A stretch of DNA of 11,231 bases from Bradyrhizobium sp. (GTDB taxonomy: Bacteria; Pseudomonadota; Alphaproteobacteria; Rhizobiales; Xanthobacteraceae), in NCBI GenBank assembly GCA_028290165.1, contig JAQGKJ010000026.1, positions 1 to 11,231 on the forward strand. The letters are read 5' to 3'. Position numbers and translations under genes: made by a program. Below the pieces are notes generated by a model, which did not search any database, had not been told where the DNA came from, and saw only the letters and a program-made list of their open reading frames with translations. This document shows positions 1 through 11,231 of the stretch, piece by piece (position 1 is the first letter of the stretch; each line of letters begins with the position of its first letter).

Positions 1-125
1 GGATGACGGTTCGTGCGTTTCATCCGCCTATATACCGCCACCTAACGCAGCTGAATCTAGGGCGCAACTGGCCGACGATCAGCATCGGCTTGACGGCGCT
101 GTACCTATGGCCATGCAGCCTGGCG

Positions 126-362
126 TCACTCAGTCGGCGACAATTCCAGCAACTTCTTTTCCGCAGCGTCGTACACCTTGACCTGGAGCATCGGAAATTC
201 GGCTTTGAGATCCCTTGCCCTTTTCTGCGCCGCTTCAAACGTTGGAAATACCGTCTTCATCCGGCCATCGACTTGCAAGCCAAAGCCCTCGGTCATCACA
301 AGATCAGCGCGTGTGACGTTGCGGGGTTGCGGCTCGTCCGGTATCGTCAGAGGCTTCTTCAT
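126..362 (-). CDS. Small hypothetical protein (78 aa)
   Basis: I do not recognise a named family and assign no function. The start is well supported: AAGGAG lies five bases before the ATG on the minus strand. The protein is soluble, with no signal peptide or membrane segment. Residues 1-20 are charged and Pro-rich. The middle reads like a short beta hairpin (GFGLQVDGRMKTVF). Residues 42-56 form an amphipathic helix (FEAAQKRARDLKAEF), followed by a strand (LQVKVYDA). That order would suit a compact alpha/beta domain. It lies downstream of the minus-strand zinc-ribbon gene, but a possible terminator at 434-455 separates the two, so it is probably transcribed on its own. Confidence 0.7.
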   Translation of the reverse strand: MKKPLTIPDEPQPRNVTRADLVMTEGFGLQVDGRMKTVFPTFEAAQKRARDLKAEFPMLQVKVYDAAEKKLLELSPTE

Positions 363-433
363 GGCAACTCCTTGGGTTGCCCCCTCCCCATCTAATCACT
401 GCCGTCCTCGGCCTCTTCAGAATGGCCGGAGGT

Positions 434-455
434 TAAAATCACCACCGATGGTGAT
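434..455 (-). terminator. Possible weak intrinsic terminator after the 559-744 gene
   Basis: On the minus strand a perfect 7-bp stem (ATCACCA / TGGTGAT, positions 438-455) with a UCGG tetraloop is followed directly by TTT and then AACC. A second hairpin, with one G:T pair, lies just upstream at about 459-480 (GCCGCCA / TGGTGGC on the plus strand). The stem is short and the T-run is brief, so it could be a regulatory hairpin for the next gene (126-362) instead. Confidence 0.35.
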
Positions 456-558
456 GATGCCGCCAACCATAGTGGTGGCCGCGACCTCTGCCCAAACCAA
501 GTTCTCGGAGCTCTCAGAGTTCCATTAGGGTGCTGCCGGTTATTGCCAACTGAGGCGG

Positions 559-744
559 CTACTTCTTTGGCACTAACCAAGCCTCTGTCACGGTACTTTC
601 GATGATGTGCCGCTGAAGCCTTTTGCATTGTGGGCAAGTGTACGTTCGCAAGTCTTGGCCCAATGCGCTCGGCTCAATCGCCGTCAACTTCATTGGAGAA
701 CCGCAAGCCGTGCATTGCGGACCCTGGTTTTGTGTGTCGAGCAT
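559..744 (-). CDS. Tiny zinc-ribbon protein, paralogue A (61 aa)
   Basis: The protein carries two CxxC knuckles, CTAC near residue 11 and CPQC near residue 37, separated by about 22 residues that include PMKLTAIEP and DLRTYTC. This is a small treble-clef or zinc-ribbon pattern that probably binds one Zn through four Cys. It is clearly paralogous to the products of 5862-6041 (CSRCGKPMRLARIEP...LRSFECTKC), 1852-2205 and 1155-1385. I chose the ATG at 744 because AAAGGGAAG lies just upstream and because it sits 17 nt after the conserved leader, as in the other copies. A GTG at 777 in the same frame would lie inside the conserved leader box and is less likely. Function is unknown. Nucleic-acid or protein binding is possible but is not shown by the sequence. 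Confidence 0.72.
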   Translation of the reverse strand: MLDTQNQGPQCTACGSPMKLTAIEPSALGQDLRTYTCPQCKRLQRHIIESTVTEAWLVPKK

Positions 745-761
745 GCGCTTCCCTTTACGTG

Positions 762-868
762 GGCGGGAGCACAACACTCTCAGTCACCGATAAAAGCCGA
801 TGCGGAGCGGTGATGGGAGCAGCATGCTCTCCCAGGTTCCGGGGTTGCTGGTCAATATCGCTCACTTT
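762..868 (-). promoter_or_regulatory. Conserved 107-nt leader element, copy 1
   Basis: This is one of three related leaders. The 5' box (868-849) is identical over 20 nt to copy 3, and the 3' box (791-762) matches copy 3 at 28 of 30 positions. Possible hairpins are P1, CAGCA (850-846) with TGCTG (824-820), and P2, TCACCG (813-808) with CGGTGA (789-784). In P3, GCTCCC (770-765) can pair with GGGAAGC (753-747), which contains the Shine-Dalgarno sequence, leaving one bulged A. A competing hairpin, GGGAG / CTCCC around AGCATGCT, spans about 833-815. The start codon lies 17 nt after the element. A structured 5' UTR is an inference from the pairing pattern. Confidence 0.65.
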
Positions 869-1027
869 CCGAAACTTAATAAATCGAGCGACGAACAAAG
901 AAACGACCCAAGAGACGGGGCATCTCACCCGTGATCTCGCGGCGAGCGCACTTGGCGTCGAAACTGCCCCCAACTTTCTCAACCCTGCATCGGAACCCAG
1001 CCCGCTCGTGCAGGGCATTTTTGAGCC
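869..1027. other. Divergent intergenic core between leader copies 1 and 2
   Basis: These 159 nt separate two head-to-head leader elements and should contain the promoters for both arms. I found no convincing sigma-70-type or EcfG promoter here. The GGAAC at 992-996 has no CGTT at the right distance. No supported ORF is present. Confidence 0.5.
983..1022 (+). terminator. Terminator-like hairpin before leader copy 2
   Basis: A perfect 7-bp inverted repeat (CCCTGCA 983-989 and TGCAGGG 1009-1015) encloses a 19-nt loop and is followed by CATTTTT. The shape is terminator-like on the plus strand, but no plus-strand gene is seen just upstream. It may instead be a protein-binding site or part of the promoter region of the 1155 operon. 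Confidence 0.3.
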
Positions 1028-1136
1028 CGAGTGAGCAATATTGACCAGTATCCACACCGTGAAGGGCGCAAGCTACGTTATCATCGACCCGCCCGTGGCC
1101 GTTTCCGGCGACTGACGGTTCGGTACCGCTCCCACC
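1028..1136 (+). promoter_or_regulatory. Conserved leader element, copy 2 (diverged)
   Basis: The 5' box at 1028-1047 matches the other two copies at 17 of 20 positions, including the core GTGAGC-ATATTGACCA. The 3' box at 1105-1136 keeps GGCGACTGA and CGCTCCCACC. Total length is 109 nt against 107 nt in the others. P2 is kept with compensating changes: TCG-A-CC (1084-1089) opposite GGCGA (1107-1111). An inner GCC-CGT-GGC triloop (1091-1099) matches GCC-ATT-GGC in copy 3. P1 and the Shine-Dalgarno-pairing hairpin are weak or lost. The GTG start of the downstream gene lies 18 nt after the element. Confidence 0.55.
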
Positions 1137-1154
1137 ATTCAACGGAAAGTGTGC

Positions 1155-1385
1155 GTGCCCGATCCGCAAACGCCCACCCTGTCGACTCGCGCGACGGCGG
1201 GACCTTGTCCCAGATGCGAATCGCGCATGGCGGTTCAGTGCATTGCCGCAGCCCGTACCGGATTCGAGTACTGGACCCTGCGGTGGACTAAGTGCGGCCT
1301 TATTCATGAGGCGCAGGTAAGCGCCGACCCGATGAAGTCCGAAGCTGTCGGCTGGGCGCGTAGCGACCTGCGAGCGCCACAGTAA
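1155..1385 (+). CDS. Degenerate zinc-ribbon protein, paralogue B (76 aa)
   Basis: This belongs to the same small family as the 559-744 and 5862-6041 products. It keeps the first knuckle (CPRCESRM, about residues 17-24) and the spacing to the second. In the second knuckle the pattern E-C-T-K-C of the paralogue has become R-W-T-K-C, so one expected zinc ligand is Trp. A longer C-terminal tail follows (EAQVSADPMKSEAVGW). I chose the GTG at 1155 over the GTG at 1149 because GGAAAG ends five bases before it and because the leader-to-start distance then equals that of the other copies. It heads a plus-strand run; the next gene starts 10 nt after its stop. It may be a decaying copy or one that has lost metal binding. 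Confidence 0.6.
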   Translation: MPDPQTPTLSTRATAGPCPRCESRMAVQCIAAARTGFEYWTLRWTKCGLIHEAQVSADPMKSEAVGWARSDLRAPQ

Positions 1386-1395
1386 GGACGATAAC

Positions 1396-1602
1396 ATGAC
1401 AGAATTGACGCGCAACGATCTCGATATTCACGATTGGGCTGCCCGGGCATCCGAGGCTCTCACACAGGCAAAAAAGTTGCCGCCCGGATCGTTGCGATCC
1501 CAGGCCATCAAAAAAGCCGGACAACTTCGCGTCGCCGCAGACATGAAAAATCTGCTGATGTCGAAAGAGCCCAAACGGCGTCCAGAAAGGGACTTTGGCT
1601 GA
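1396..1602 (+). CDS. Small helical protein, stand-alone helical module (68 aa)
   Basis: No named family is recognised. The core, about residues 14-52, has the pattern ARASEALTQAKKLPPGSLR followed by SQAIKKAGQLRVAAD: two amphipathic helices joined by a PPG turn. The same pattern recurs in the next two genes, most closely in the C-terminal half of the 1852-2205 product (DALEEAQAMSPGARR, then ALKKAGVLRRTAD). The tail is very basic (KEPKRRPERDFG). The ATG is preceded by TAAGGA, which overlaps the stop region of the preceding zinc-ribbon gene, so the two are probably co-translated. The likely role is as partner of the zinc-ribbon protein, since the two modules are fused downstream. Confidence 0.65.
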   Translation: MTELTRNDLDIHDWAARASEALTQAKKLPPGSLRSQAIKKAGQLRVAADMKNLLMSKEPKRRPERDFG

Positions 1603-1648
1603 CGGCGATCCAAGACCATAGGACCCGTCTCAAACTCGGAGTCGCAAA

Positions 1649-1852
1649 TTGCCCCCCTCTGCCGATCTCAAGCCGACGTTCGATCCGCGTTACAGAATCT
1701 CGGACCTTGTCGAGAAACGGCGCGACGTTCTGCGTTTTGCCCGATCCCTTCCAAGGGGCCCGAGGCGGAATCAACTTCGACAGACCGCGGCGTTGCTTCG
1801 TACACTCTTTAAGAACAGGGGTTGGTTGGACGCCCACACGTTGGACGGTTGA
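1649..1852 (+). CDS. Small helical protein, diverged helical module (67 aa)
   Basis: This is a diverged copy of the helical module: RRDVLRFARSLPRGPRR then NQLRQTAALLRTLFK matches the helix-PxG-helix plan of its neighbours, at about residues 25-55. The only usable start is TTG at 1649, since a stop codon lies in frame at 1619-1621. GGAG at 1638-1641 is spaced suitably. Its TGA stop overlaps the ATG of the next gene (TGATG), which suggests translational coupling. A strongly basic composition (many Arg) is visible. The TTG start and divergence make this less certain than its neighbours, but the conserved module and coupling argue for a real gene. Confidence 0.5.
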   Translation: MPPSADLKPTFDPRYRISDLVEKRRDVLRFARSLPRGPRRNQLRQTAALLRTLFKNRGWLDAHTLDG

Positions 1853-2205
1853 TGCCGGAAACTTGTTCCTCGTCCCGTGATCCACTCATTGCCAGCCGGC
1901 GGCGGCGCTGCCCAAAATGCGATGCAAGGATGCGTCTGGCGCGCGTTGCGCGGGGGTCATCCAACTTCGATATCCGCACATTTGATTGCCCCAGGTGCGA
2001 TCACACCCACATCGTGACCGTCGCAACTGATCTAGTAAGCGACAGCCGCAGCCTGCACGCGAGAGCGATTGACGCGCTTGAGGAAGCCCAGGCGATGTCG
2101 CCCGGCGCGCGGCGAAACGACGCGCTGAAAAAAGCGGGGGTTCTCCGTAGAACTGCGGACAATCAGGGGGTAATCTTTGCGAAACGGGAAAAGCCCCGCA
2201 AGTGA
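1852..2205 (+). CDS. Zinc-ribbon / helical-module fusion protein (117 aa)
   Basis: Two modules are joined. Residues about 18-50 form a complete four-Cys zinc ribbon (CPKCDARMRLARVA...FDIRTFDCPRC), very close to the 5862-6041 product. Residues about 68-101 form the helical module (ARAIDALEEAQAMSPGARR, then ALKKAGVLRRTAD) seen alone in 1396-1602. The tail is basic (KREKPRK). I chose the ATG at 1852 because it overlaps the TGA of the preceding gene; an in-frame TTG at 1822 lies inside that gene. The fusion suggests that the separate proteins of 1155-1385 and 1396-1602 act together. The biochemical function is unknown. Confidence 0.68.
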   Translation: MPETCSSSRDPLIASRRRRCPKCDARMRLARVARGSSNFDIRTFDCPRCDHTHIVTVATDLVSDSRSLHARAIDALEEAQAMSPGARRNDALKKAGVLRRTADNQGVIFAKREKPRK

Positions 2206-2249
2206 TGACCTGATGGAGCAGCAGCTCGCCGCTTAGTGCGAAAGTAGGC

Positions 2250-2267
2250 TTGGCGCTTTGCCGCCAA
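2250..2267. promoter_or_regulatory. Hairpin upstream of the Crp/Fnr gene
   Basis: TTGGCG (2250-2255) and CGCCAA (2262-2267) form a perfect 6-bp inverted repeat with a 6-nt loop, 39 nt before the regulator start. No T-run follows. It could be an operator or a weak terminator for the upstream operon. Confidence 0.25.
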
Positions 2268-2306
2268 CCAAAGTCGATCAACTTCGTCGAGCCAAAGGAG
2301 GCTCCC

Positions 2307-2984
2307 ATGGGTAAGCCAACCAGGGACATGTTCGACCCCAAGATCTTTCTCGCCAAGGTGGGCGCGGGGAAAACGATCCTCGAACTTCGCAAAAACCAGC
2401 ACGTGTTCGAGCAAGGCGAAGTCGCGGACACGGTTTTTTACATTCAAAGGGGCAAGGTCAAGCTTACAGTCGTGTCTGAGCAGGGCAAGGAAGCGGTCGT
2501 CGCAATTCTAGAGCCCGGCCAGTTCTTTGGCGAAGGATGCATGAATGGCCATCCGTTACGCATCGCGACGACAACCGCGATCGAGGATTGCGTCATCACG
2601 TCGATCACGAAAGACGCGATGATCGCGGCTATTCATGATCAGCCGAGATTTTCGGAGCTATTCATGACCTATCTCCTGACCCGGAACAGCCGGATTGAGG
2701 AGGATCTGATCGATCAGCTCTTCAATTCGAGTGAGCGGCGGCTTGCACGGCTGCTTTTGCTGCTCGCGAATTTCGGCAAGGAAAGCAGCCCGCAGCCGAT
2801 CAATCCGCATATCAGTCAAGAAACGCTGGCGGAGATGGTCGGCACCACTCGATCCCGAGTAAGCCATTTCATGAACAAATTTCGCAAGCTGGGCCTGATC
2901 AGCTACAACGGGAAAATCGAGGTCCACAATTCGCTGTTAAGTGCGGTTTTGCATGAGAAGCCCGTCGTAAGAGAGCGTGACTAG
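2307..2984 (+). CDS. Crp/Fnr-family transcriptional regulator (225 aa)
   Basis: The protein is a DNA-binding regulator with the usual two-domain plan. Residues about 14-115 form the cyclic-nucleotide-binding-type beta barrel (VFEQGEVADTVFYIQRGKVKL, then GQFFGE at 71-76). A long dimer helix spans about 116-150. A winged helix-turn-helix lies at about 165-210 (ISQETLAEMVGTTRSRVSHFM is the recognition region). GE (75-76) and Arg85 resemble the phosphate-binding cassette, but the Ser after Arg in Crp is Ile here, so cAMP binding is unproven. No FNR-type N-terminal Cys cluster is present. The ATG at 2307 follows a near-perfect AAAGGAGG; an upstream in-frame start at 2250 would overlap a hairpin and lacks a ribosome site. 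The effector and targets are not evident. Confidence 0.92.
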   Translation: MGKPTRDMFDPKIFLAKVGAGKTILELRKNQHVFEQGEVADTVFYIQRGKVKLTVVSEQGKEAVVAILEPGQFFGEGCMNGHPLRIATTTAIEDCVITSITKDAMIAAIHDQPRFSELFMTYLLTRNSRIEEDLIDQLFNSSERRLARLLLLLANFGKESSPQPINPHISQETLAEMVGTTRSRVSHFMNKFRKLGLISYNGKIEVHNSLLSAVLHEKPVVRERD

Positions 2985-3002
2985 AAACAAGATCACAAGA
3001 AA

Positions 3003-3040
3003 ACGGCCCCAGCGCGGGCGGGGGTACATGCAGGGGCCGT
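3003..3040 (+). terminator. Likely terminator after the Crp/Fnr gene
   Basis: A perfect 8-bp stem (ACGGCCCC 3003-3010, GGGGCCGT 3033-3040) starts 18 nt after the regulator stop. It is preceded by AAAA and followed by CATTTC rather than a clean T-run. The 22-nt loop is long for an intrinsic terminator, so efficiency is uncertain. Confidence 0.45.
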
Positions 3041-3213
3041 CATTTCATCATCGTTAGATTGCATGGGCGTTGCCTGGCATCAAAACTGATCCCCAGCAGC
3101 GCGCCGGTTAGAGTTGTTCAAAAAGCATCAAGTTGCTTGCTCCCGGATCTATAACGATCAGGAAATAGCTTGGCTCGCACTGAGGTGACCTTACTTCGGG
3201 CGCGGCGAACGCG

Positions 3214-3519
3214 TTACCATCGCCGACCCCAGCCGCCGCTCCATCTGCTTCCCCATCCGCCACCCCCTCGAAAAAGCCGCACGATGAGGAGGAGCAAGAT
3301 CGCACCAACAGTGGCGTTGACGATTGCACTGACCATTCCGGTACCGAGATGGATGCCCAACTGGGGCAACAACCAACTTCCGATAAAGGCACCCAAAATC
3401 CCGACAATGAGATCGCCAACGATCCCAAAACCAGTCCCTCGCACGATTTGACCGGCCAGCCAACCTGCAACGAGACCAACGAACAATATAACCAACAGGC
3501 TTTCGCTCGACATATTCAT
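3214..3519 (-). CDS. GlsB/YeaQ/YmgE-family membrane protein (101 aa)
   Basis: This is a small inner-membrane protein of the transglycosylase-associated (GlsB/YeaQ/YmgE) family, usually tied to envelope or general stress in other bacteria. Three hydrophobic segments are visible at about residues 7-24, 31-52 and 59-82. The family hallmarks GWLAGQIVRGTGFGIVGD and GILGAFIGSWLL are present. The tail (RGGGGWGSRWSGGWGRRW) is rich in Gly, Trp and Arg and extends the typical 80-85-residue length. The ATG at 3519 follows GAGG and overlaps the TGA of the preceding gene (ATGA), so translation is probably coupled to it. A second ATG two codons later is too far from the ribosome site. No enzyme activity is implied by the sequence. 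Confidence 0.9.
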   Translation of the reverse strand: MNMSSESLLVILFVGLVAGWLAGQIVRGTGFGIVGDLIVGILGAFIGSWLLPQLGIHLGTGMVSAIVNATVGAILLLLIVRLFRGGGGWGSRWSGGWGRRW

Positions 3520-3797
3520 TGTGCCACCTCGGCATTTTGCTTGATATGCAACATAACAGGCTGATTTGCTGCGGGCTGTGCCAGTTTGATCGGTTTACTG
3601 CGGTTTCGCTTCTGGCGCGAAACACGGCCGACGCCGTCGGTCAACGCGATCTGTTCGACCAGCATCGTCATGTGTCGTGGCAATCCGTTGGGCGCACCTG
3701 TCAGGCTGGTACGCAGCCGGTCGCCTACTTCCTCGCAGATGGCGGCACTGGAAACGTGGTCGATTTGAATATCACTCCGAACAGCTGGGCTGGTCAT
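3516..3797 (-). CDS. Hypothetical protein coupled to the GlsB-like gene (93 aa)
   Basis: I do not recognise the family. The N-terminal half, about residues 15-55, looks helical (AAICEEVGDRLRTSL, then RHMTMLVEQIALTD). The region after residue 58 is basic and low in order (RQKRNRSKPIKLAQPAANQP). There is no signal peptide or membrane segment. The start at 3797 is supported by CGGAGAA seven bases upstream; the open frame continues further back without a ribosome site. It starts 13 nt after the stop of the 81-residue secreted protein and overlaps the GlsB-like gene by four bases, forming a three-gene unit. A loose likeness to small NepR-type regulators was considered, but their usual EPVP segment is absent. 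Confidence 0.65.
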   Translation of the reverse strand: MTSPAVRSDIQIDHVSSAAICEEVGDRLRTSLTGAPNGLPRHMTMLVEQIALTDGVGRVSRQKRNRSKPIKLAQPAANQPVMLHIKQNAEVAQ

Positions 3798-3810
3798 GAA
3801 AATTCTCCGG

Positions 3811-4056
3811 CTAGCCGCGGTCGGCGCTGACAAAGCGAGCCTCAAGCGTCGCGCCATTACCGTGCAGGCATGAGGCACTGAAGTTGGGCCAGGTCTGCGT
3901 TGTACAGCCGCGATCGACGCTATGGATAACGAGCCGGTTGCTCTTCTGGAGGGCGACCGGCCCTTCAGCTTCGACTTCCGGGGCAAATCCGGGGAGTATC
4001 AACAAGGCGACTGCAATGAAGGCGGTAATTGCGATGGCTGAGAGCGTTTTGATCAT
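3811..4056 (-). CDS. Small secreted protein (81 aa)
   Basis: An N-terminal signal peptide is clear: MIKT followed by a hydrophobic stretch (about residues 5-23) and a likely cleavage after the VEA near residue 30. The mature part is about 50 residues and holds two Cys (C50 in RGCTTQTWPNF and C63 in SASCLHGNG) that could form a disulfide in the periplasm. The motif CTTQTWPNFSASCL resembles a type of small rhizobial exported protein I have seen described only as hypothetical; no function is known to me. GGGGA lies before the ATG. It leads the unit 4056-3214. A GGAAC at 4103-4099 on this strand might mark its promoter, but the matching -10 is poor. Confidence 0.75.
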   Translation of the reverse strand: MIKTLSAIAITAFIAVALLILPGFAPEVEAEGPVALQKSNRLVIHSVDRGCTTQTWPNFSASCLHGNGATLEARFVSADRG

Positions 4057-4162
4057 TTAATCCCCGATTCACAGGGACAAGTGGACCGAAGGCCGATTGT
4101 TCCGGCGTTGCTTGGGTTATTTCCCCTGGCGCTCGCAGGGCCGCGCCCTGCTCAAGCCATAA

Positions 4163-4192
4163 AAAAGGCCGCGGATTTCTCCACGGCCTTTT
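4163..4192 (-). terminator. Intrinsic terminator of the 4211-4513 gene
   Basis: A perfect 9-bp stem (AAAAGGCCG / CGGCCTTTT) with a 12-nt loop starts 18 nt after the minus-strand stop codon. Read on the minus strand it ends in TTTTTT, a classic intrinsic terminator. On the plus strand it ends in TTTT and may work weakly in that direction too. Confidence 0.85.
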
Positions 4193-4210
4193 GCATATCA
4201 GCTTCTATTT

Positions 4211-4513
4211 TCAAAAGCGGCCGACGCCCACGCTCACGCCGGGAACGCTGATGCCAATACCGCCGCGTTCTTCATAACCACGGTGATCGTAGTACCGCTC
4301 GCGAGGCGCGTCGTAACCGTAGGAGTCGCGGATGATGACGCGTCGGTCATCGCGTTGACGCCAGCAACGGCCGTTCTCGTCGCATACCATGCGGACGTTC
4401 TGGATGTTGCTGTCGTGAGCCGCCGATAGACCGGCAGTGAGCGGTGCAGCAGTGGCGGCGGTTGCGAAGAGCGCACTTGCGCCAACTGCAAAAGAGATTG
4501 CTAGCTTGTTCAT
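4211..4513 (-). CDS. Small exported protein under an EcfG promoter (100 aa)
   Basis: The signal peptide MNKLAISFAVGASALFATAA has a likely cleavage in ATAA/PL near residues 22-23. The mature part has two close Cys (VCDENGRCW), an acidic/basic Tyr-rich segment (YGYDAPRERYYDHRGYEERG) and a Gly/Val-rich end (GIGISVPGVSVGVGRF). This composition is common in small rhizobial exported proteins of unknown role. The ATG at 4513 follows TTGGAGAA; the in-frame TTG at 4525 is part of that ribosome site. A consensus EcfG promoter lies about 90 nt upstream and a strong terminator follows, so this is a single-gene stress unit. The function is unknown; an envelope role is an inference. Confidence 0.8.
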   Translation of the reverse strand: MNKLAISFAVGASALFATAATAAPLTAGLSAAHDSNIQNVRMVCDENGRCWRQRDDRRVIIRDSYGYDAPRERYYDHRGYEERGGIGISVPGVSVGVGRF

Positions 4514-4602
4514 GATGTTCTCCAAGCGGGGTGTGTCGAAGCTTCAACAGCCTGCTGATGATGGCTGCCAGGCGATCCCGCCGCGTTCGGGGATCAGTTC
4601 AC

Positions 4603-4627
4603 AACGGCCCCAGCGACAAAGCGTTCC
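4603..4627 (-). promoter_or_regulatory. EcfG-type stress promoter for the 4211-4513 gene
   Basis: On the minus strand GGAAC (4627-4623), exactly 16 nt, then CGTT (4606-4603) matches the known EcfG (general stress sigma factor) consensus GGAAC-N16/17-CGTT. It lies about 90 nt before the start codon. Confidence 0.75.
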
Positions 4628-4774
4628 CGCCAAATGCAACTTATATTTGAAACAGACCGGGTTTCGTGGCGTGCACATGGTTAAAGGCTTCGGCGACAGC
4701 CGTTTGTCATCCCCATTTCATGGGCGTTAACTCGCGTACATCTTCCGATCAAAGAAACAATCAAAGATAGAATC

Positions 4775-4799
4775 GGAACTTTAAGCCGTCGGGGCCGTT
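4775..4799 (+). promoter_or_regulatory. EcfG-type stress promoter for the DUF1236 gene
   Basis: GGAAC (4775-4779), exactly 16 nt, then CGTT (4796-4799) fits the EcfG consensus. It lies about 59 nt before the DUF1236 start. Its spacer ends in GGGGC before CGTT, as does the divergent promoter at 4603-4627. The rest of the 344-nt gap between the two genes shows no supported ORF. Confidence 0.78.
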
Positions 4800-4837
4800 C
4801 CGCTCTCTGTCCGACGTTCGTCGGCATGGATTCAAAT

Positions 4838-4861
4838 ATGAATTGGAAAAAAGTCAGATGA
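4838..4861 (+). CDS. Possible 7-codon upstream ORF (MNWKKVR)
   Basis: An ATG at 4838 opens a 7-codon frame whose TGA overlaps the ATG of the DUF1236 gene (ATGA). No clear ribosome site is seen before it, so it may be chance. If translated it would couple to the DUF1236 gene. Confidence 0.2.
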   Translation: MNWKKVR

Positions 4862-5613
4862 GAAAAACGTTGATGGTTTCCGTGGCCGTTGCGGCGCTGT
4901 TCGCCGCGACCGGGCTTGCGACCGCTCAAGGTGTCAATCAGGGCGGCGTGAAGGAGTCTCCGGCAGCTGCTTCGCCGAAGGGTGACACCGCGGCACCGAT
5001 GAATGCACCCGCAGCAAAGGGAGCGGAGAGCGCAGCACCTGGCGCTGCGTCGAAAGAAGGGACACCGCAGCACGCGCAGAGCAAGCCGGATGCAAAAACG
5101 ACCGGCGAGATGAAGCCTGACAGCAAGTCAAAGGCGTCGGATTCAACCGCTCCGACCACCACTTCGAAGGACATGAAGAGTCCGACCGCCGAAACCAAGT
5201 CGACTTCCGAAGGCAAGACGGCCGGCGAGATGAAAGCCGACGGCAAAGCGAAAGCGTCCGATTCGACGACCACCTCGAAGGACCTGAAGACCCCGACCGC
5301 CGAGACCAAACCTTCGGCTTTTGACAGCAAGACGACCGGCAGTGCCGCAACCTCGGCGACAGCAGCACCTTCTGTCGAGAAACGCGGCCAAATCGCCACG
5401 GCGATCAAGCAAGAGAAGGTCGAGGAAACCACCGTGAACTTCAATGTCTCGGTCGGTACGGCAGTCCCGAACAGCGTCCGCTATTATCCGCTGCCGTCAC
5501 ATATCGTCGAAATCTATCCGGAATGGCGTGGATATGATTTCATCCTCGTGCACGGCAGGTACGTCATCCTTCGCCCGCACACTCACGAGATCGTCTACAT
5601 CATCGAAGGTTGA
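4858..5613 (+). CDS. Exported DUF1236-domain protein with tandem repeats (251 aa)
   Basis: This is a secreted or periplasmic protein. The signal peptide MRKTLMVSVAVAALFAATGL has a likely cleavage near residue 24 (ATAQ). Residues 25-175 are low in complexity and rich in Ala, Lys, Ser, Thr and Glu, and include two tandem repeats (residues 80-119 and 120-152). Residues about 195-250 form the DUF1236 fold: RYYPLPSHIVEIYPEWRGY, then ILVHGRYVILRPHTHEIVYII. DUF1236 proteins have no established enzymatic role; envelope association is likely. The ATG at 4858 is the first that gives a proper signal peptide; TTGGAAAAAAG upstream is a modest ribosome site. It has its own EcfG promoter and a strong terminator, so it is a single-gene stress unit. 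The linker length may vary between strains because of the repeats. Confidence 0.85.
   Translation: MRKTLMVSVAVAALFAATGLATAQGVNQGGVKESPAAASPKGDTAAPMNAPAAKGAESAAPGAASKEGTPQHAQSKPDAKTTGEMKPDSKSKASDSTAPTTTSKDMKSPTAETKSTSEGKTAGEMKADGKAKASDSTTTSKDLKTPTAETKPSAFDSKTTGSAATSATAAPSVEKRGQIATAIKQEKVEETTVNFNVSVGTAVPNSVRYYPLPSHIVEIYPEWRGYDFILVHGRYVILRPHTHEIVYIIEG
5095..5313 (+). repeat. In-frame tandem repeat within the DUF1236 gene
   Basis: Two direct repeats of about 120 and 99 nt encode matching units. Unit 1 reads KTTGEMKPDSKSKASDS...TSKDMKSPTAETK and unit 2 KTAGEMKADGKAKASDS...TSKDLKTPTAETK. Unit 1 has an extra TAP near its middle and a longer end. The match at DNA level is clear but imperfect, so this is an old duplication. 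Confidence 0.75.
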
Positions 5614-5647
5614 ACGAATCCGCCAAGCGAACTGCAAACGAACCAGA

Positions 5648-5679
5648 AAGGGCGGCTTTAACAGCCGCCCTTCTTTTTT
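5648..5679 (+). terminator. Strong intrinsic terminator of the DUF1236 gene
   Basis: A perfect 10-bp stem (AAGGGCGGCT / AGCCGCCCTT) with a 5-nt loop (TTAAC) is followed by C and six T. It starts 35 nt after the stop codon. Confidence 0.93.
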
Positions 5680-5736
5680 GAGCCAGCCGCTGCGAGTTCT
5701 CCCGATCGTCCTGGCCGGCAAAAGTCCGAATTCTTG

Positions 5737-5843
5737 AAAGTGAGCGATATTGACCAACATGCGTGGAACTCAAAGAGTATGTTGGTTCGATCACCGCCCC
5801 GCCATTGGCAACAATCGGTGACTGAGAGTGTCGCGCTCCCGCC
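5737..5843 (+). promoter_or_regulatory. Conserved 107-nt leader element, copy 3 (best copy)
   Basis: The 5' box is at 5737-5756 and the 3' box at 5814-5843. P1 is CCAACAT (5754-5760) with ATGTTGG (5779-5785), extendable by one A:T pair. P2 is TCACCG (5791-5796) with CGGTGA (5816-5821), with an inner GCC-ATT-GGC. P3 is GCTCCC (5835-5840) with GGGAGC (5853-5858), which covers the Shine-Dalgarno sequence of the gene at 5862. The element starts 57 nt after the upstream terminator, so a promoter should lie in 5680-5740 or within the 5' box. A cis-acting RNA is inferred from structure and covariation with the other copies. Confidence 0.68.
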
Positions 5844-5861
5844 TGATCAAAGGGGAGCATC

Positions 5862-6041
5862 ATGCAGTCCACTCAGCCCAATCCACTTTTTAGCGTTGCG
5901 GAGATCGGAATTCTGAACTGCTCCAGATGCGGCAAACCGATGAGGCTGGCGCGCATCGAGCCGGACAAACCGGGCTTCGACCTGCGCAGCTTTGAATGCA
6001 CAAAATGCAGTACCGGCGAAACCTTCCTCGTTGCCATCTAG
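5862..6041 (+). CDS. Tiny zinc-ribbon protein, paralogue C (59 aa)
   Basis: A complete four-Cys zinc ribbon makes up most of the protein: CSRC at residues 20-23 and CTKC at 46-49, with KPMRLARIEPDKPGFDLRSF between. The N-terminal 19 residues are polar and probably flexible; the end is short (TGETFLVAI). It is the closest match to the zinc ribbon of the 1852-2205 fusion and to the 559-744 product. The ATG follows AAAGGGGAG, a strong ribosome site that may be masked by the leader hairpin. It stands alone between a terminator and a non-coding gap. It probably binds one Zn; the target (nucleic acid or protein) is unknown. Confidence 0.75.
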   Translation: MQSTQPNPLFSVAEIGILNCSRCGKPMRLARIEPDKPGFDLRSFECTKCSTGETFLVAI

Positions 6042-6439
6042 GCGGGCATGTTGTGCTTGATTGCGCCGCCTAACGAGACGCTGATGGCGCTGGATCTGTT
6101 GCCGCGCAGCACCACTTGAGGGCCGGCCGTTTCGCTGGCGCCGTCTGACGTAGCCAACGGACGCGCGCTCAACGGCCATAATGAGCCATTCAAGAAGCGC
6201 GCGGCCCCACTATCCGGTGATTTCGCGCATTTCCGTCGAAATGTGAGCGCCATGGTCTTTAAAGGAACGCATACAGGTTGCTATCGGGTGCCCGAGTAAC
6301 CATCTGATCAGTTAGCGTAATCGGATCGGTGCAATTGCGCGTGTCCCGAAACGCCAAGCCTTAGCCACGCCAAAACCTACGGACGGTATCGACCAACGGC
6401 ATATCGCTTCGATATGCGCGTGACGGGTCAGGAAAACCT
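6042..6439. other. 398-nt gap before the mannose cassette
   Basis: I find no well-supported gene here. The plus strand holds only very short frames. A 71-residue minus-strand frame (6038-6253) lacks a ribosome site and recognisable features. A GGAAC at 6264-6268 has no CGTT at 16-17 nt. The only clear structure is the hairpin at 6399-6417. The promoter of the mannose cassette is expected here but I could not place it. Confidence 0.5.
6399..6417. promoter_or_regulatory. Perfect hairpin or operator before the isomerase gene
   Basis: GCATATCG (6399-6406), CTT, CGATATGC (6410-6417) is a perfect 8-bp inverted repeat, ending 22 nt before the isomerase start. There is no T-run, so it is more likely an operator or a 5'-UTR hairpin than a terminator. 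Confidence 0.45.
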
Positions 6440-7369
6440 ATGGCCATCGAACATGCCTCCGTGCAGGTCGTGCGCAAGCCCTGGGGGGTCGCCGATCTCC
6501 ATCCCTGGAGCAGCATCGATGGTTCAAGTGAAGCAATCGGGGAATTGTGGTTTCAGCGCGCCGATCAAAATGCGCCAATCCCGGCCTTGCTGCTCAAATT
6601 ACTGTTTACCAGCGAGCCCTTGTCGATCCAGGTTCATCCAGACGACGCGTTCGCGCGCTCGATCGGCCTGCCGAACGGCAAGACCGAGGCATGGTACATC
6701 CTTTCGGCCGCGCCGGGCGCGCGGGTTGCCACTGGATTGAAACGTCGTCTCGCGCCACAAGATTTGCGCGCGTCGATCAGGGATGGCTCGATTGCAAGTC
6801 TGACGCAATGGCGTCCTGTCGCGAAAGGCGACATCATCTTCGTCCCTGCCGGCACGATCCACGCCATAGGTGCCGGTATCGTGCTCGCCGAGATTCAACA
6901 GCGCAGCGACGCTACATTCCGCCTGTTCGACTACGGCAGACAGCGCGAACTGCATGAAGAGAACGCCATCGCTGTCTCCGATGCCGGGCCCATTCAAACT
7001 CAACCCGCCCAACAACGCCTCACTGCGGCCCGAACGGCGCTTATCGCAAGTCCGCATTTCGTCATTGAGCGGATCGACCTTCGGGCAAATTCACGCTGGA
7101 CACTTAATGCCGATCAGGAAACCTGGATCCTCGTGACCGAAGGGCAGGCGCGGATCGGGTCGATAAATGCGTCGGTCGGCGACGCCGTCTTTGCCGAAGC
7201 GGATCACGCCGACATTGAGATCGGGCCCGACGGGATGAGGGGGCTGATCGCCTATCCGGGACCGAACCCAACCATGATGTTGCTGCAAGAATCGGGAGCG
7301 CAAATGACTAAATCTGCCGGCACGTCCGCGGTACGCTTGCCGAAGCCGGAAGTCGAGACACGGACATGA
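6440..7369 (+). CDS. manA: Class I mannose-6-phosphate isomerase (309 aa)
   Basis: The enzyme interconverts mannose 6-phosphate and fructose 6-phosphate in the cytosol, feeding GDP-mannose synthesis or mannose use. It is a short, Bacillus-like form (about 310 residues) of the cupin-fold type I family. The zinc site is visible: Q64 and H66 in QVHPDD, E83 in KTEAWY and H141 in PAGTIHAIG. The FRLFDYGR segment (160-167) matches the family's active-site Arg region. The C-terminal cupin half (about 205-290) is less conserved. AGGA precedes the ATG. Its TGA overlaps the ATG of the glycosyltransferase gene (ATGA), so the two are translationally coupled. In this setting it likely supplies or recovers mannose for the neighbouring glycoside enzymes. 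The symbol reflects the family; a second isomerase elsewhere in the genome is possible. Confidence 0.9.
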   Translation: MAIEHASVQVVRKPWGVADLHPWSSIDGSSEAIGELWFQRADQNAPIPALLLKLLFTSEPLSIQVHPDDAFARSIGLPNGKTEAWYILSAAPGARVATGLKRRLAPQDLRASIRDGSIASLTQWRPVAKGDIIFVPAGTIHAIGAGIVLAEIQQRSDATFRLFDYGRQRELHEENAIAVSDAGPIQTQPAQQRLTAARTALIASPHFVIERIDLRANSRWTLNADQETWILVTEGQARIGSINASVGDAVFAEADHADIEIGPDGMRGLIAYPGPNPTMMLLQESGAQMTKSAGTSAVRLPKPEVETRT

Positions 7370-9651
7370 CGCCGCTCCGCCGCATCGCCGTTATCGGCAA
7401 TTCGCTACCCCGCCGCTGCGGAATCGCCACCTTCACGACCGACCTGCAGCAGGCGATATCGACTTCACACCCGAACCTTGAGACCTGCATCGTGGCGATG
7501 ACCGACCATGGTCAAGCCTACAATTATCCTCCGGCGGTCGCCTTTCAGATCAAGGACGACAATATCGAAGAGTATGTGCGCGCAGCAGACTTCCTGAACG
7601 CCGGCCGGTTCGACACCGTGTGCCTGCAGCACGAATTCGGGATTTTCGGCGGCGAAGCCGGTGCCCACGTCCTCGTGCTGCTGTCGCGCCTCACCATGCC
7701 GGCGATAACGACGTTCCATACGGTGCTGTCCAAGCCGACGGCCAGTCAACGCGCGGTGATGGGGCGCATCGTCGATGCGTCGTCGAAGGTCGTGGTGATG
7801 ACCAACAAGGGCCACGAGCTGCTGCGCAGCGTCTATCAGGTGCCTGACGACAAGATCGAGGTGATAGCCCATGGCATTCCCGACGTCGCATTTGTCGGGC
7901 CCGATGCGGCAAAGGACAAGCTCGGGTTTGCCGGCAAGTCGGTCATTCTGACATTCGGCCTGCTGTCCCCCAACAAGGGCATCGAAGTGGTGATCGACGC
8001 CATGCCGTCTATTCTGAAGCGCCGCGCAGACGTGGTCTACGTCGTGCTCGGCGCAACGCATCCCAATCTGGTGCGGGACCAGGGCGAGGCTTATCGCGAG
8101 AGCCTGATGGCGCGCGTGCGTGAACTTGGCGTCGAAGATCACGTGGTGTTCCTCGACCGGTTCGTCGATCAGGCTACGCTGCTCGAATTCATCTCGATGT
8201 GCGACGTCTATGTCACGCCCTATCTCAACGAGGCGCAGATGACGTCGGGAACGTTGGCTTACAGCTTCGGATTGGGGAAGCCAGTCGTCTCGACGCCGTA
8301 CTGGCACGCGCGCGACCTGCTGACTGATGGACGAGGCGTTCTGGTGCCTTTCGGCGACGCGGCGGCGATCGGCAGCGAGATTGCGGAATTGCTCACCGAC
8401 GACGCCCGTCGGCAGGCGATGTGTCGGCGCGCCTATGCGGTCAGCCGAACGATGACATGGGAACGCACCGCCGAGCGTTACATATCCGTGTTCGAGAACG
8501 CACGGCAGGGTCACTGGCTCAAGGCCTTTACGCGCTCCGACACGGGCGCGCCCGAGCCGCGCAGCCCAGCGGCGCCTGATATGCAAATCGGCCATTTCCT
8601 GTCGATGTGCGACGACACCGGTCTGTTCCAGCACGCGGTGCATTCGGTGCCCGATCGCTCGCACGGTTATTGCGTCGATGACAACGCTCGCGCCTTGCTG
8701 TTGGCCTGCGCCCTCAATAATCCGGGCGAACAGCGTCTATCGGAAGTTTTGACGGGCCGCTTTGCGGCCTTCGTGCAGCATGCATGGAATCCCGACACCG
8801 GGCGATTTCGCAACTTCATGGGCTTCAATCGAACCTGGCTTGAAGACAGAGGTTCCGAAGACAGTCACGGGCGAACGCTTTGGGCCCTGGGCGAGTGCGC
8901 GCGCAAGGACGCAAGCCCGTCGCGGCGCCGGTGGGCTGCCGCCTTGTTCGCTCAGGCATTGTCGACCACCGAGACGTTTCGCTCGCCCCGAGCATGGGCG
9001 TTCACGCTGCTGGGTCTTAGCGCTTATTGCGCTGCAGCTCCGGATGACCTCCGCGCCCAGGAAGTCCGGCATTCTCTTGCCGGCCGGTTGATGTCCGCTC
9101 TGGCGTCGGTCGAGACACCGGACTGGGCGTGGTTCGAGGAAGGGTTGGCTTACGACAATGCACGGTTGCCGCAGGCTTTGATGATGACAGGCATGGCGAC
9201 GCAAACGCCAGGCTACGTCGATGCCGGACTGAGGACCCTGCGTTGGCTGATGACGCAACAAACTACCTCGGGAGGCTATTTCCGGCCGGTCGGCACCGCC
9301 GGCTTCGGCGAACAGCGGCAACCTCCCCGCGCCTTCGACCAGCAGCCCGTGGAAGCCACGGCAACCATCGCAGCCTGCCTTACCGCGTGGCAGGCGGACG
9401 GCGATCCCGAGTGGAAGGCCATGGCAACCCGCGCTTTCGGGTGGTTTCTCGGCAGCAACGATCTGTCTGTGGCGCTGGTCGATCCGCAGACCGGGAGTTG
9501 CCGCGATGGACTGCATCCCGATCGCGCCAACGAGAATCGCGGCGGGGAGTCGGTTGTGTGCTATCTGCTAGGGCTTGCGGAGATTCGTCAACTCGCGCGC
9601 GTCAACGCCGGTCTGACAAAACCCACAGCACTCCGCGCCGTGGGCGCCTGA
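7366..9651 (+). CDS. GT4-like glycosyltransferase with C-terminal alpha/alpha-toroid-like domain (761 aa)
   Basis: This is a two-part protein. Residues 1-380 form a GT-B glycosyltransferase: the N-terminal Rossmann half (RRCGIATFTTDL, CLQHEFGIFGGEAGAH) and the nucleotide-sugar half (LTFGLLSPNKGIEVVIDAM at about 195-213, then CDVYVTPYLNEAQMTSGTL near 279-297). The usual EX7E motif is replaced by QMTSGTLAYSFGLGKPVV. Residues about 405-745 are mostly helical, with repeated acidic motifs (CVDDNAR 436-442, EDSHGR 498-503, EEGLAYDNARLPQAL 591-605, FDQQPVEA 657-664), resembling six-hairpin glycosidase-type toroids. The typical GT4 enzyme is half this length, so this is a fusion. The donor may be GDP-mannose given the neighbours, but that is inference. 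No signal peptide or membrane segment is visible; it is likely cytosolic. It starts by ATGA overlap with the isomerase gene. Confidence 0.85.
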   Translation: MTPLRRIAVIGNSLPRRCGIATFTTDLQQAISTSHPNLETCIVAMTDHGQAYNYPPAVAFQIKDDNIEEYVRAADFLNAGRFDTVCLQHEFGIFGGEAGAHVLVLLSRLTMPAITTFHTVLSKPTASQRAVMGRIVDASSKVVVMTNKGHELLRSVYQVPDDKIEVIAHGIPDVAFVGPDAAKDKLGFAGKSVILTFGLLSPNKGIEVVIDAMPSILKRRADVVYVVLGATHPNLVRDQGEAYRESLMARVRELGVEDHVVFLDRFVDQATLLEFISMCDVYVTPYLNEAQMTSGTLAYSFGLGKPVVSTPYWHARDLLTDGRGVLVPFGDAAAIGSEIAELLTDDARRQAMCRRAYAVSRTMTWERTAERYISVFENARQGHWLKAFTRSDTGAPEPRSPAAPDMQIGHFLSMCDDTGLFQHAVHSVPDRSHGYCVDDNARALLLACALNNPGEQRLSEVLTGRFAAFVQHAWNPDTGRFRNFMGFNRTWLEDRGSEDSHGRTLWALGECARKDASPSRRRWAAALFAQALSTTETFRSPRAWAFTLLGLSAYCAAAPDDLRAQEVRHSLAGRLMSALASVETPDWAWFEEGLAYDNARLPQALMMTGMATQTPGYVDAGLRTLRWLMTQQTTSGGYFRPVGTAGFGEQRQPPRAFDQQPVEATATIAACLTAWQADGDPEWKAMATRAFGWFLGSNDLSVALVDPQTGSCRDGLHPDRANENRGGESVVCYLLGLAEIRQLARVNAGLTKPTALRAVGA

Positions 9652-9681
9652 ATCTCTTCCTCCAGCGAGCCGAGGACACCC

Positions 9682-10980
9682 GTGTTACAAACCACCTTCC
9701 TGAACCGGCAGGCGCTGTACCTTCGGCCCGATCCCGCGCGGGTGATCGTGCGCCCGTTCAAGCCGGCGACAGAACCGCGTGATCTGAACCCGACCGACAA
9801 AACGCGCGCAAATCATATCGTCGACCGGGTTCTCGCACTCGATTCCGAATCCGTTACCACCCAGCTCGCGGAAGTCCTCGATAATTTTCTTGGCCGACAT
9901 CGTAACCTGCTGGAGACGTTCGAGGCCCGCGCAGATGAAATGGAGCAAGCTTTCGCAACGCATGGGATCTTTTCAAAGATCCAGCGCCAGCTGATCGGCG
10001 CCTATTTTCTCAATGAGTATTCGTTCGAAGCCTCTGCCTTGTTTAACCCCAGCATCGTGCCGCACCCCGACCAATCGGAAGCGCCGAAAGGCGGCTTGCG
10101 CTTCATCCTCAGTCTCCGAGCCACAGGCGAAGGGCATGTGTCGTCATTGACGTTTCGGGCCGGCACCATCGCAGCCGACGGCAGCCTGACCGTTGATCCA
10201 ACGGCTCGCCTCGCCTCGAGCCCCCGGATATGCAATCGCGTATCCGGGCCAGACGGCGACCATGTCGAGTTGATTTTCAAACCCGAGGAAGACCTCAGCG
10301 AGCGCGTCATCTTTCCCGTCACCGAATCCCAATCGAACGGCATTGAGGACGCGCGCTTTGTCGAATTCAGGGATGGCGATCGGAAAACCTACTACGCGAC
10401 CTATACCGCCTACAGCGGACGCGCGATCCGTTCCGAATTGATCGAGACCAGCGATTTCATGTCGTTCCGGCTGGCGCCCCTAAGAGGTGCTGCGGCACGG
10501 AACAAGGGCATGGCGCTCTTCCCGCGCAAGATCGGCGGCAAATACACCATGATCGCGCGGCAGGATAATGAGAACCTGTATCTGATCTATTCAGACGACC
10601 TGTACACATGGAACGGCGGTCAGGCCATTCTGAAGCCGGAATTTCCCTGGGAGTTCGTTCAGATCGGCAATTGCGGATCGCCTATCGAACTCGATGAAGG
10701 CTGGCTGCTTCTTACGCATGGCGTCGGCCCGGTCCGCAAATATTCCATCGGCGCGGCGCTGCTCGACAAGAGCGACCCCTCCAAGGTGCTTGCGCGCTCG
10801 CGCGAGCCATTGTTGCGGCCCGAGCCGTCTGAACGCGAAGGATACGTCCCCAACGTCGTCTATACCTGCGGCGCCATGAGGCACAACGACCAGATCATTT
10901 TGCCATATGCGGTGTCGGACACCTTCTCCAATTTCGCGACCATCAAGATTTCGGCGCTGATGCAGGCGATGAAAAGTTGA
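9682..10980 (+). CDS. GH130-family beta-mannoside phosphorylase/hydrolase (432 aa)
   Basis: GH130 enzymes act on beta-linked mannosides, mostly by reversible phosphorolysis to mannose 1-phosphate; some are hydrolases. Residues 1-115 are a helical N-terminal extension; residues about 115-430 form the five-bladed propeller. GIEDARFVEF (220-229) carries the likely catalytic Asp223. NKGMALFPRKIGGKY (274-288), THGVG (345-349) and EREGYVPNVVYTCGA (384-398) are family motifs. The Lys and His in the first two would suit phosphate binding, so a phosphorylase is favoured, but I cannot fix the subfamily or substrate. The GTG start follows GAGGA by seven bases and lies 30 nt after the glycosyltransferase stop, so the gene is co-transcribed. 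It is cytosolic (no signal). It could recycle the glycoside made by the upstream enzyme. Confidence 0.88.
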   Translation: MLQTTFLNRQALYLRPDPARVIVRPFKPATEPRDLNPTDKTRANHIVDRVLALDSESVTTQLAEVLDNFLGRHRNLLETFEARADEMEQAFATHGIFSKIQRQLIGAYFLNEYSFEASALFNPSIVPHPDQSEAPKGGLRFILSLRATGEGHVSSLTFRAGTIAADGSLTVDPTARLASSPRICNRVSGPDGDHVELIFKPEEDLSERVIFPVTESQSNGIEDARFVEFRDGDRKTYYATYTAYSGRAIRSELIETSDFMSFRLAPLRGAAARNKGMALFPRKIGGKYTMIARQDNENLYLIYSDDLYTWNGGQAILKPEFPWEFVQIGNCGSPIELDEGWLLLTHGVGPVRKYSIGAALLDKSDPSKVLARSREPLLRPEPSEREGYVPNVVYTCGAMRHNDQIILPYAVSDTFSNFATIKISALMQAMKS

Positions 10981-11048
10981 TTGCCGTCTCAGCTAAGGCA
11001 AAGCGCGACATGCCCATGCCTTCGACTACTGGACATCAGGGAGACTTT

Positions 11049-11231
11049 ATGGCCCGCGAAACAAGTTATTTCGTGCAGTCGTTCAACGCCGGCAAAGGCG
11101 GAAACCTTAAGGCTGATACCCCGATAGCTTGCAAATCGGCAACCGGCGCGGTCCGAACGGCGGAACGATTGGCGCTGAGCAAACTCGGTGTCGTTGCCTT
11201 CTCGTCCACCGGCGACCCTGAGATGGGCGAC
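11049..11231 (+). CDS. Small hypothetical protein, truncated by the window edge (at least 61 aa)
   Basis: The ATG follows CAGGGAG at a good distance and the frame stays open to the last base. The visible part reads ARETSYFVQSFNAGKGGNLKA, then IACKSATGAVRTAERLAL and KLGVVAFSSTGDPEMGD. It looks like a small alpha/beta protein with strand, helix (residues about 33-45), strand. It resembles small rhizobial proteins described only as hypothetical. No signal peptide is seen. It lies 68 nt after the GH130 gene, so it may belong to that unit or have its own promoter. Confidence 0.65.
   Translation, partial: MARETSYFVQSFNAGKGGNLKADTPIACKSATGAVRTAERLALSKLGVVAFSSTGDPEMGD

Follow-up and report, generated by a model that had tools for sequence, protein, structure and literature searches.

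A putative Crp/Fnr-type promoter and a separate leader RNA precede small-protein genes in Bradyrhizobium and its relatives

Overview

The window analyzed here, an 11,231-nt stretch of Bradyrhizobium sp. (assembly GCA_028290165.1, contig JAQGKJ010000026.1, positions 1 to 11,231), carries three similar leaders ahead of small-protein genes, which are real, yet each consists of two modules, promoter DNA and an RNA leader, rather than a single RNA. The reading favored here, which we hold to be probable with considerable room for error, is that a promoter activated by a Crp/Fnr-family protein is joined to a separate RNA module that masks the Shine-Dalgarno sequence. The modules themselves, the covariation of the hairpin, the geometry of the promoter, and the spread of the leader to other promoters and genes were shown computationally.

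The leaders lie at 762-868 on the minus strand (copy 1), and at 1028-1136 (copy 2) and 5737-5843 (copy 3) on the plus strand, and their shared 5' and 3' boxes, strands, and overall lengths (107, 109, and 107 nt) agree with an earlier note on this DNA. Independent repeat detection recovered the arms 747-802/5803-5858 (77% identity), 836-869/5736-5769 (85%), and 843-866/1030-1053 (88%), and the copies were also aligned. The spacing of 17-18 nt from the 3' box to the start codon, as described in that note, holds for copy 1 (ATG 744) and copy 3 (ATG 5862) but for copy 2 only with GTG 1155, the distance being 12 nt if GTG 1149 is used. The repeats are not a product of chance, since the two-box pattern found 22 further stretches in the genome contigs, 19 from Bradyrhizobium and one each from Afipia, Alphaproteobacteria, and an Acidobacteriaceae metagenome-assembled genome (MAG). 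Plasmid records similar to 5700-6060 of the window belong to Bradyrhizobium in all seven cases.

The 5' box and the probable promoter

The 5' box, TGAGCRATATTGACCA, is a 16-nt palindrome with CRP/FNR spacing, present in copy 1 as the imperfect palindrome TGAGCGATATTGACCA (849-864, minus strand), in copy 2 as TGAGCAATATTGACCA (1032-1047, plus strand), and in copy 3 again as TGAGCGATATTGACCA (5741-5756, plus strand). Approximately 21 nt beyond it stands a putative -10 hexamer, CATGCT in copy 1 (821-826, minus strand), CAAGCT in copy 2 (1069-1074, plus strand), and TATGTT in copy 3 (5778-5783, plus strand), which places the putative transcription start on the A ahead of TCACCG (5790, plus strand, in copy 3) and the operator center at about -41.5. 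A start downstream of the 3' box, which the earlier note had named as evidence against its structure, is not what this geometry indicates; the putative start falls between the boxes, so that the 5' box and the outer stem of that note (P1) would be excluded from the RNA.

When sequences upstream of the stem were scored against TGGTCAATATTGACCA, 100 of 199 reached at least 11 of 16, and 92 of the 100 lie 32-36 nt from the stem without any restriction on distance in the scoring, a constancy that may partly stem from the search, as the two-box selection pattern permitted 50-80 nt between the boxes. After removal of near-duplicates, an operator within 32-36 nt remained in 80 of 176 unique upstreams, and its center falls between -42.5 and -40.5 from the putative start in 75 of the 80, a count partly built in because the class was defined by distance (allowed center -43.5 to -39.5). 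A NANNNT hexamer 12-13 nt ahead of the stem occurs in 69/80 upstreams with the operator and 55/96 without it, and the base ahead of the stem is A in 166/176. The 5' box and the -10 hexamer can thus be read with high confidence as probable promoter elements. The operator is absent from 96 of the 176 unique upstreams that carry the leader core, and the Crp link is therefore restricted to a subset of leaders.

CRP half-sites read TGTGA and those of FNR TTGAT, and the FixK/FNR consensus is TTGAT-N4-ATCAA. A FixK/FNR-type site is not matched here, the commonest operator bases being TGAGC-N6-GACCA, with positions 2, 5, 12, and 15 occupied by G, C, G, and C in 80/80 operators. In having a 16-nt palindrome with half-sites 6 nt apart, a center near -41.5 of the putative start, and a Crp/Fnr gene nearby, the arrangement resembles class II CRP/FNR promoters, from which it differs in its half-site (TGGTC/TGAGC) and in the recognition helix of the regulator (TTRSRVSHF); class II Crp promoters have the site at -41.5, according to the accessible portion of PMC5957442.

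A second kind of promoter, GGAAC-N15-18-[CT]GTT, was found in 8 of the 199 upstreams, always ending 7-9 nt before the stem, with 0.41 expected anywhere, and in three of the eight an operator-like palindrome lies farther out as well, 41 nt upstream of the stem. The upstreams with GGAAC-N16-[CT]GTT are presumably EcfG-type promoters. The Crp-type and EcfG-like promoters together indicate about one start, and the presence of the leader behind EcfG-type promoters at a nearly fixed distance (for example L078:1501-1582, L133:966-1081, L138:1048-1130, and L166:1156-1231) implies that the RNA module moves between promoter classes; it stands behind Crp-type, EcfG-like, and other promoters. Operator-like sites also occur without the leader hairpin (L023:69-192, L149:3008-3083, L161:7218-7260, and L024:4501-4561) and may be further Crp targets.

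All six positions of P1 (CAACAT/ATGTTG) pair in copy 3 and five of the six do so in copy 1, and the -10 hexamer of copy 3 contains most of its 3' half. Among 69 homologs, mean pairing in this register was 3.93 of 6 against 3.74 with partners shuffled (p 0.006, kinship ignored), rows with at least five pairs numbered 21 against 18.2 (p 0.17), and pairing in any register gave no clear excess (4.41 versus 4.34, sd 0.10). On this test P1 was rejected as an RNA stem; it is most likely promoter DNA upstream of the RNA, with pairing that is not conserved. The case shows that a promoter palindrome and a -10 element can mimic an RNA stem.

The Crp/Fnr regulator

The gene at 2307-2984 (plus strand) encodes a Crp/Fnr-family regulator with the recognition helix TTRSRVSHFMNKFRKLG and is the likely candidate for the activator of the operator promoters. 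Of 20 genomes picked by hand, 16 contain relatives of it, as do 35 of 214 fetched loci (a count that takes in overlapping fetches) and, at 1e-50, 41 of 119 family genomes. The operator pattern, with at most one mismatch, was found in 28 of these 119 genomes and its reversed control in 3, and Crp is present in 18 of the 28 compared with 23 of the 91 others (Fisher p 0.00025, kinship ignored), a Crp match at 1e-50 being missing from the remaining 10. For 10 of 43 distinct operator sites, a Crp gene is found no more than 5 kb away. In two loci (L050 and L094) the leader stands directly ahead of the crp gene, making autoregulation likely there, and in the window crp comes after the small genes downstream of copy 2 (1396-1602, 1649-1852, and 1852-2205, plus strand), with which it may form one operon. 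By eye, these small genes seem to combine CxxC and KKAGxLRxxAD segments, both of which occur in the ORF at 1852-2205. In three other loci (L190, L214, and L299), the leader precedes longer genes that resemble, by eye, another Crp/Fnr group.

The RNA leader and its hairpin

From the putative start A, the RNA runs through a hairpin and a conserved CUGAGAG to GCUCCCGCC, which adjoins the Shine-Dalgarno sequence. In copy 3 (plus strand), the hairpin TCACCG/CGGTGA spans 5791-5821 (arms 5791-5796 and 5816-5821), followed by CTGAGAG (5822-5828) and the conserved GCTCCCGCC, the putative anti-Shine-Dalgarno box (C-box, 5835-5843). The core of copy 1 (762-814, minus strand) comprises the putative start A814, the stem TCACCG (808-813)/CGGTGA, CTGAGAG, and GCTCCCGCC (762-770), and that of copy 2 (1080-1136, plus strand) comprises TCATCG (1081-1086)/CGGCGA (1106-1111), CTGACGG, and GCTCCCACC (1128-1136). 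The earlier note described the inner stem of copy 2 as compensated; the homologous arms contain an A-C mismatch, and this leader looks decayed.

Among 207 distinct matches, TCACCG/CGGTGA are the commonest arms (139), with the variants TCGCCG/CGGCGA (6), TCATCG/CGATGA (3), CCACCG/CGGTGG (3), TCGCCA/TGGCGA (2), TCACCT/GGGTGA (1), and TCACAG/CTGTGA (1); pairing is complete in 180 matches and interrupted by a mismatch or gap in 22, while the arms are missing from 5. In a set of 94 rows, a choice that favors pairing because it leaves out 31 of 125 representatives (16 that look decayed or misplaced, among them some whose stems are broken, plus 15 of form B, described below), double changes occur in 4/6 stem pairs, a count of such pairs reached by 9/500 shuffles with both helices counted. 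In the same set, the hairpin and a tentative second hairpin together have 14 double-change cells (0/500 shuffles), and slid structures pair at 29-48% as against 96.7%. All 125 representatives, which derive from a model that already contains the stem, have 97.6% of stem cells paired versus 95.0% when shuffled, with 108 rows fully paired, four pairs with a double change (reached by 11/500 shuffles), and 19 double cells (0/500).

A set chosen without regard to the stem was assembled from viral contigs matching CTGAGAG-N2-12-GCTCCCGCC, of which 92 stretches, some duplicates and some due to chance, were found and 91 were usable. In 30 of the 91, a helix of 7 bp or more runs up to CTGAGAG or stops one base short of it, compared with 5.7% of shuffled upstreams; after removal of near-duplicates the figures are 27 of 69 and 5.1%. 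The stems of this set vary widely in sequence (CGTCCGG/CCGGACG in L288, for example), and order- and class-level members look similar by eye (L187, L189, L190, L192, L196, and L200). Distant members with different stems (L185, L186, L231, L241, L288, and L300) stand before small MPRYFFDVxDG-like proteins, as judged by eye.

Taken on comparative evidence, TCACCG/CGGTGA is, with high confidence, to be regarded as a real and selected RNA hairpin. The earlier view that pairing is kept between the boxes is thus borne out by covariation of this inner hairpin, except in copy 2, and not by P1, which pairs at nearly the shuffle level; likewise, the proposal of a selected RNA structure instead of DNA sites stands for the hairpin, while a palindromic operator is the most likely identity of the 5' box, and promoter DNA around the -10 that of the 5' stem. 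The hairpin also recurs, with covariation, ahead of many small CxxC genes. In thermodynamic folding, the hairpin has a mean probability of 0.33 (0.30 in copy 3, 0.01 in copy 1, and near 0 in copy 2), and the folding energies relative to shuffles give z values of -1.0 for copy 1 and +0.55 for copy 2 (both no better than shuffled) and of -2.2 for copy 3.

Several other structures were considered and set aside. Of a GGUG/CGCC plus GAG/CUC fold proposed by RNAalifold from the first 25 sequences, GGUG/CGCC was dropped, CGCC being unchanged in three TCATCG/CGATGA leaders. A second hairpin, GAG-A-GY..RY-G-CUC, looked plausible by eye but is not supported, its inner pair forming in 70/97 leaders against 69.9 when shuffled (p 0.56). 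A coding role for the leader (SVTESVALPP in copies 1 and 3) was dismissed, since the spacers differ in length by non-multiples of three. In form B (25 matches; L061, L086, L087, L101, L142, L146, L157, and others), CGGTGATGAGAACGC..GCGCTCCCGCC replaces CTGAGAG and there is an apparent second small hairpin, whose version GAGAACGC..GCGCTC is suggestive, with one GCC/GGC exchange in L147.

Predicted masking of the ribosome site

Pairing between the C-box and the Shine-Dalgarno sequence is predicted with a mean probability of 0.61 in 113 leaders, compared with 0.29 when the C-box is permuted, and exceeds 0.5 in 66% of them. In copy 3 the Shine-Dalgarno GGGGAGC (5852-5858, plus strand) has a predicted pairing of 0.996 with the GCTCCCGCC box (0.53 with the C-box permuted), and the corresponding values are 0.80 in copy 1 and 0.25 in copy 2. 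The C-box pairs with its downstream region at -9.9 kcal/mol versus -6.8 kcal/mol for shuffled sequences, and a C follows GGAG in 32/55 leader genes as against 15/57 others (p 0.001; a rough background, with ORFs taken from the first ATG). Covariation between C-box and Shine-Dalgarno was sought among 25 variant boxes and not found; compared with the canonical box on their own downstream regions, 5 of these variants pair better, 18 worse, and 2 equally, which suggests that the C-box has another job or that masking is dispensable in those leaders. With moderate confidence, the folding predictions make it likely that the GCUCCCGCC box masks the Shine-Dalgarno sequence and so gates translation.

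Genes behind the leaders

Zinc-ribbon-like genes stand behind copy 1 (559-744, minus strand, ATG 744) and copy 3 (5862-6041, plus strand), both with weak Pfam matches below the curated cut-offs, and a CxxC gene starting at GTG 1149 or 1155 stands behind copy 2 (1149-1385, plus strand). An ORF of at least 30 amino acids was called behind 182 of 199 leaders, a few of these calls being spurious (in L050 a short ORF was called though crp follows). These ORFs form 33 clusters, labeled by eye from example sequences. The largest comprise 65 zinc ribbons, 40 members of an EAxxLPPGPERDxLxRKARQ family, 18 short REWLVPPVL proteins that contain a hydrophobic stretch, and 12 MCEKC proteins, and 20 clusters hold one ORF each. 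Zinc-ribbon genes, named in the earlier note as what the leader precedes, are accordingly the largest cluster (65/182), but other ORFs make up 32 further clusters, and the leader family is not specific to zinc-ribbon genes. An ORF that starts 12-29 nt past GCTCCCGCC and has a Shine-Dalgarno sequence is present for 171/199 leaders, whereas the opposite direction gives 17/199 and randomly chosen positions give 17%. The matches, up to 32 per genome and some of them clustered, are mostly before small-protein genes of several families.

Proposed mechanism and alternatives

In the proposed mechanism, a Crp/Fnr-family protein, most likely the product of 2307-2984, would bind TGAGCRATATTGACCA centered at about -41.5 and activate transcription starting on the A that precedes the hairpin. 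The resulting mRNA would begin with the AUCACCG...CGGUGA hairpin, followed by CUGAGAG and GCUCCCGCC. The CUCCC within GCUCCCGCC is able to pair with GGGAG(C) of the Shine-Dalgarno sequence, so that by default the ribosome site would be masked in vivo; a signal or factor acting through the hairpin and CUGAGAG would free it. Beyond this, it is conceivable, at odds of perhaps one in three, that one trans-acting factor (an RNA-binding protein, a small RNA, or a ligand) reads the 5'-terminal hairpin and CUGAGAG and opens or closes ribosome sites jointly on as many as thirty or so mRNAs for small proteins in a genome, whatever the promoter, which would constitute a translation-level regulon in Bradyrhizobium and its relatives. 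The leader brings together numerous small-protein genes that had lacked an explanation as a candidate group under post-transcriptional control, some of which can now be given a likely activator and operator. A start-site map exists for Bradyrhizobium japonicum USDA 110, as the available part of PMC4842269 shows, in which the predicted mRNA 5' ends, on the A preceding the hairpin, are checkable where the leader is carried and expressed.

The strongest competitor, which we consider somewhat doubtful, is that the leader is an mRNA-stabilizing, translation-enhancing 5' end without switching, in which the hairpin blocks 5'-end-dependent decay and CUGAGAG and GCUCCCGCC bind a housekeeping RNA chaperone. 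Such a role would suit a hairpin that starts at about +2 of the putative transcript and whose place is fixed while its sequence varies, as well as the uncompensated C-box variants, yet it leaves unexplained the enrichment of GGAGC and the extra pairing of the C-box with downstream sequence. An RNA thermometer with ROSE-like logic, whose second hairpin melts on heating to expose the Shine-Dalgarno sequence, is unlikely. The hairpin and the predicted masked Shine-Dalgarno adjoining a GCU-containing arm would be compatible with it, and ROSE elements, in which U(U/C)GCU lies opposite the Shine-Dalgarno sequence, do occur in Bradyrhizobium, according to the accessible text of PMC3669281. Nevertheless, only 2 of the 97 form-A leaders have the U two bases before GCU that this motif needs, inspection by eye of example sequences from the ORF clusters of the 182 leaders revealed no recognizable small heat-shock family, and neither the sequence conservation of CUGAGAG nor the lack of an Rfam match at the leaders is accounted for.

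Two further explanations appear highly improbable, and equally so. One is the original model of a single structured RNA of about 107 nt including the 5' box and both stems; the complementarity of CAACAT/ATGTTG in copies 3 and 1 and a mean pairing slightly above shuffles speak for it, whereas the 5' box is palindromic, sits at about -41.5 of the putative promoter, and is missing from more than half of the unique upstreams that have the core, and rows with at least five P1 pairs are not in excess. The other is a mobile REP-like repeat that stands ahead of genes by chance, as the number of matches per genome and their partial clustering might suggest; against this, orientation and distance to the ORF start are fixed, and Br-REP1 and Br-REP2 are placed in 3' UTRs and intergenic regions and have another consensus in the part of PMC5082802 at hand. 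The leader shares with these Bradyrhizobium repeats their many-copy character and differs in its position ahead of start codons.

Searches against Rfam 15 (4227 families) gave 0 matches at E<=1 in the window and 5 in 14 homologous loci, none at a leader, in keeping with the earlier statement that no named RNA family could be assigned. Like ROSE thermometers, the leader is a short RNA of the 5' UTR that has a hairpin upstream of a Shine-Dalgarno sequence, here predicted to be masked; it is dissimilar in its conserved CUGAGAG, in the absence of U(U/C)GCU from 95/97 leaders, of an Rfam match, and of a recognized heat-shock family downstream. It also recalls Shine-Dalgarno-masking riboswitches, which have conserved unpaired nucleotides beside a stem and an anti-Shine-Dalgarno segment, but has no Rfam match, and its targets are small proteins, not one recognized pathway. 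The Rhizobiales-1, Rhizobiales-2, flg-Rhizobiales, and Methylobacterium-1 motifs are likewise candidate structured RNAs from the same bacterial orders in the accessible part of PMC2864571; the last three carry Rfam numbers there, yet no Rfam family matched the leader, while Rhizobiales-1 is shown without one and falls outside an Rfam-based comparison. No description of the leader was found in the literature searched, with most subscription papers and all supplements outside its scope, nor in the accessible portions of PMC5082802, PMC4842269, PMC9320726, PMC2864571, and PMC3669281.

Distribution of the leader

A covariance model with the TCACCG/CGGTGA stem only, built from 25 sequences (R1), matched 14/14 records (13 genomes picked for carrying the pattern and one plasmid with similar sequence), with between 1 and 32 matches per record at E<=0.01, and 39/119 genomes of a family-wide sample at 1e-4. 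Many of its matches were confined to the 3' half, the first hint of two modules. A model of the core (R2) matched 40/41 family genomes at the loose threshold of E<=0.01 and, at the likewise loose E<=0.001, 111/297 genomes of the order, 64/289 of the class, and 64/299 of the phylum. The R2 loci inspected include evident chance matches, and the weak matches in the three samples above family rank, at about 20-25 bits, were discarded as for the most part due to chance. At 35 bits or more, a cut picked after the lists had been viewed and counted by eye, 21/41 genomes of the family, 17/297 of the order, 4/289 of the class, and 11/299 of the phylum remained, family members included, and the exact pattern was present in 7/289 genomes of the class sample versus 4 for its reversed control. 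By these model matches, the leader family is concentrated among Bradyrhizobium relatives, and its members outside that group are scattered. The Acidobacteriaceae MAG (G012, locus L007) has ten matches to the Crp protein and five leaders, which may reflect either transfer or contamination of the bin.
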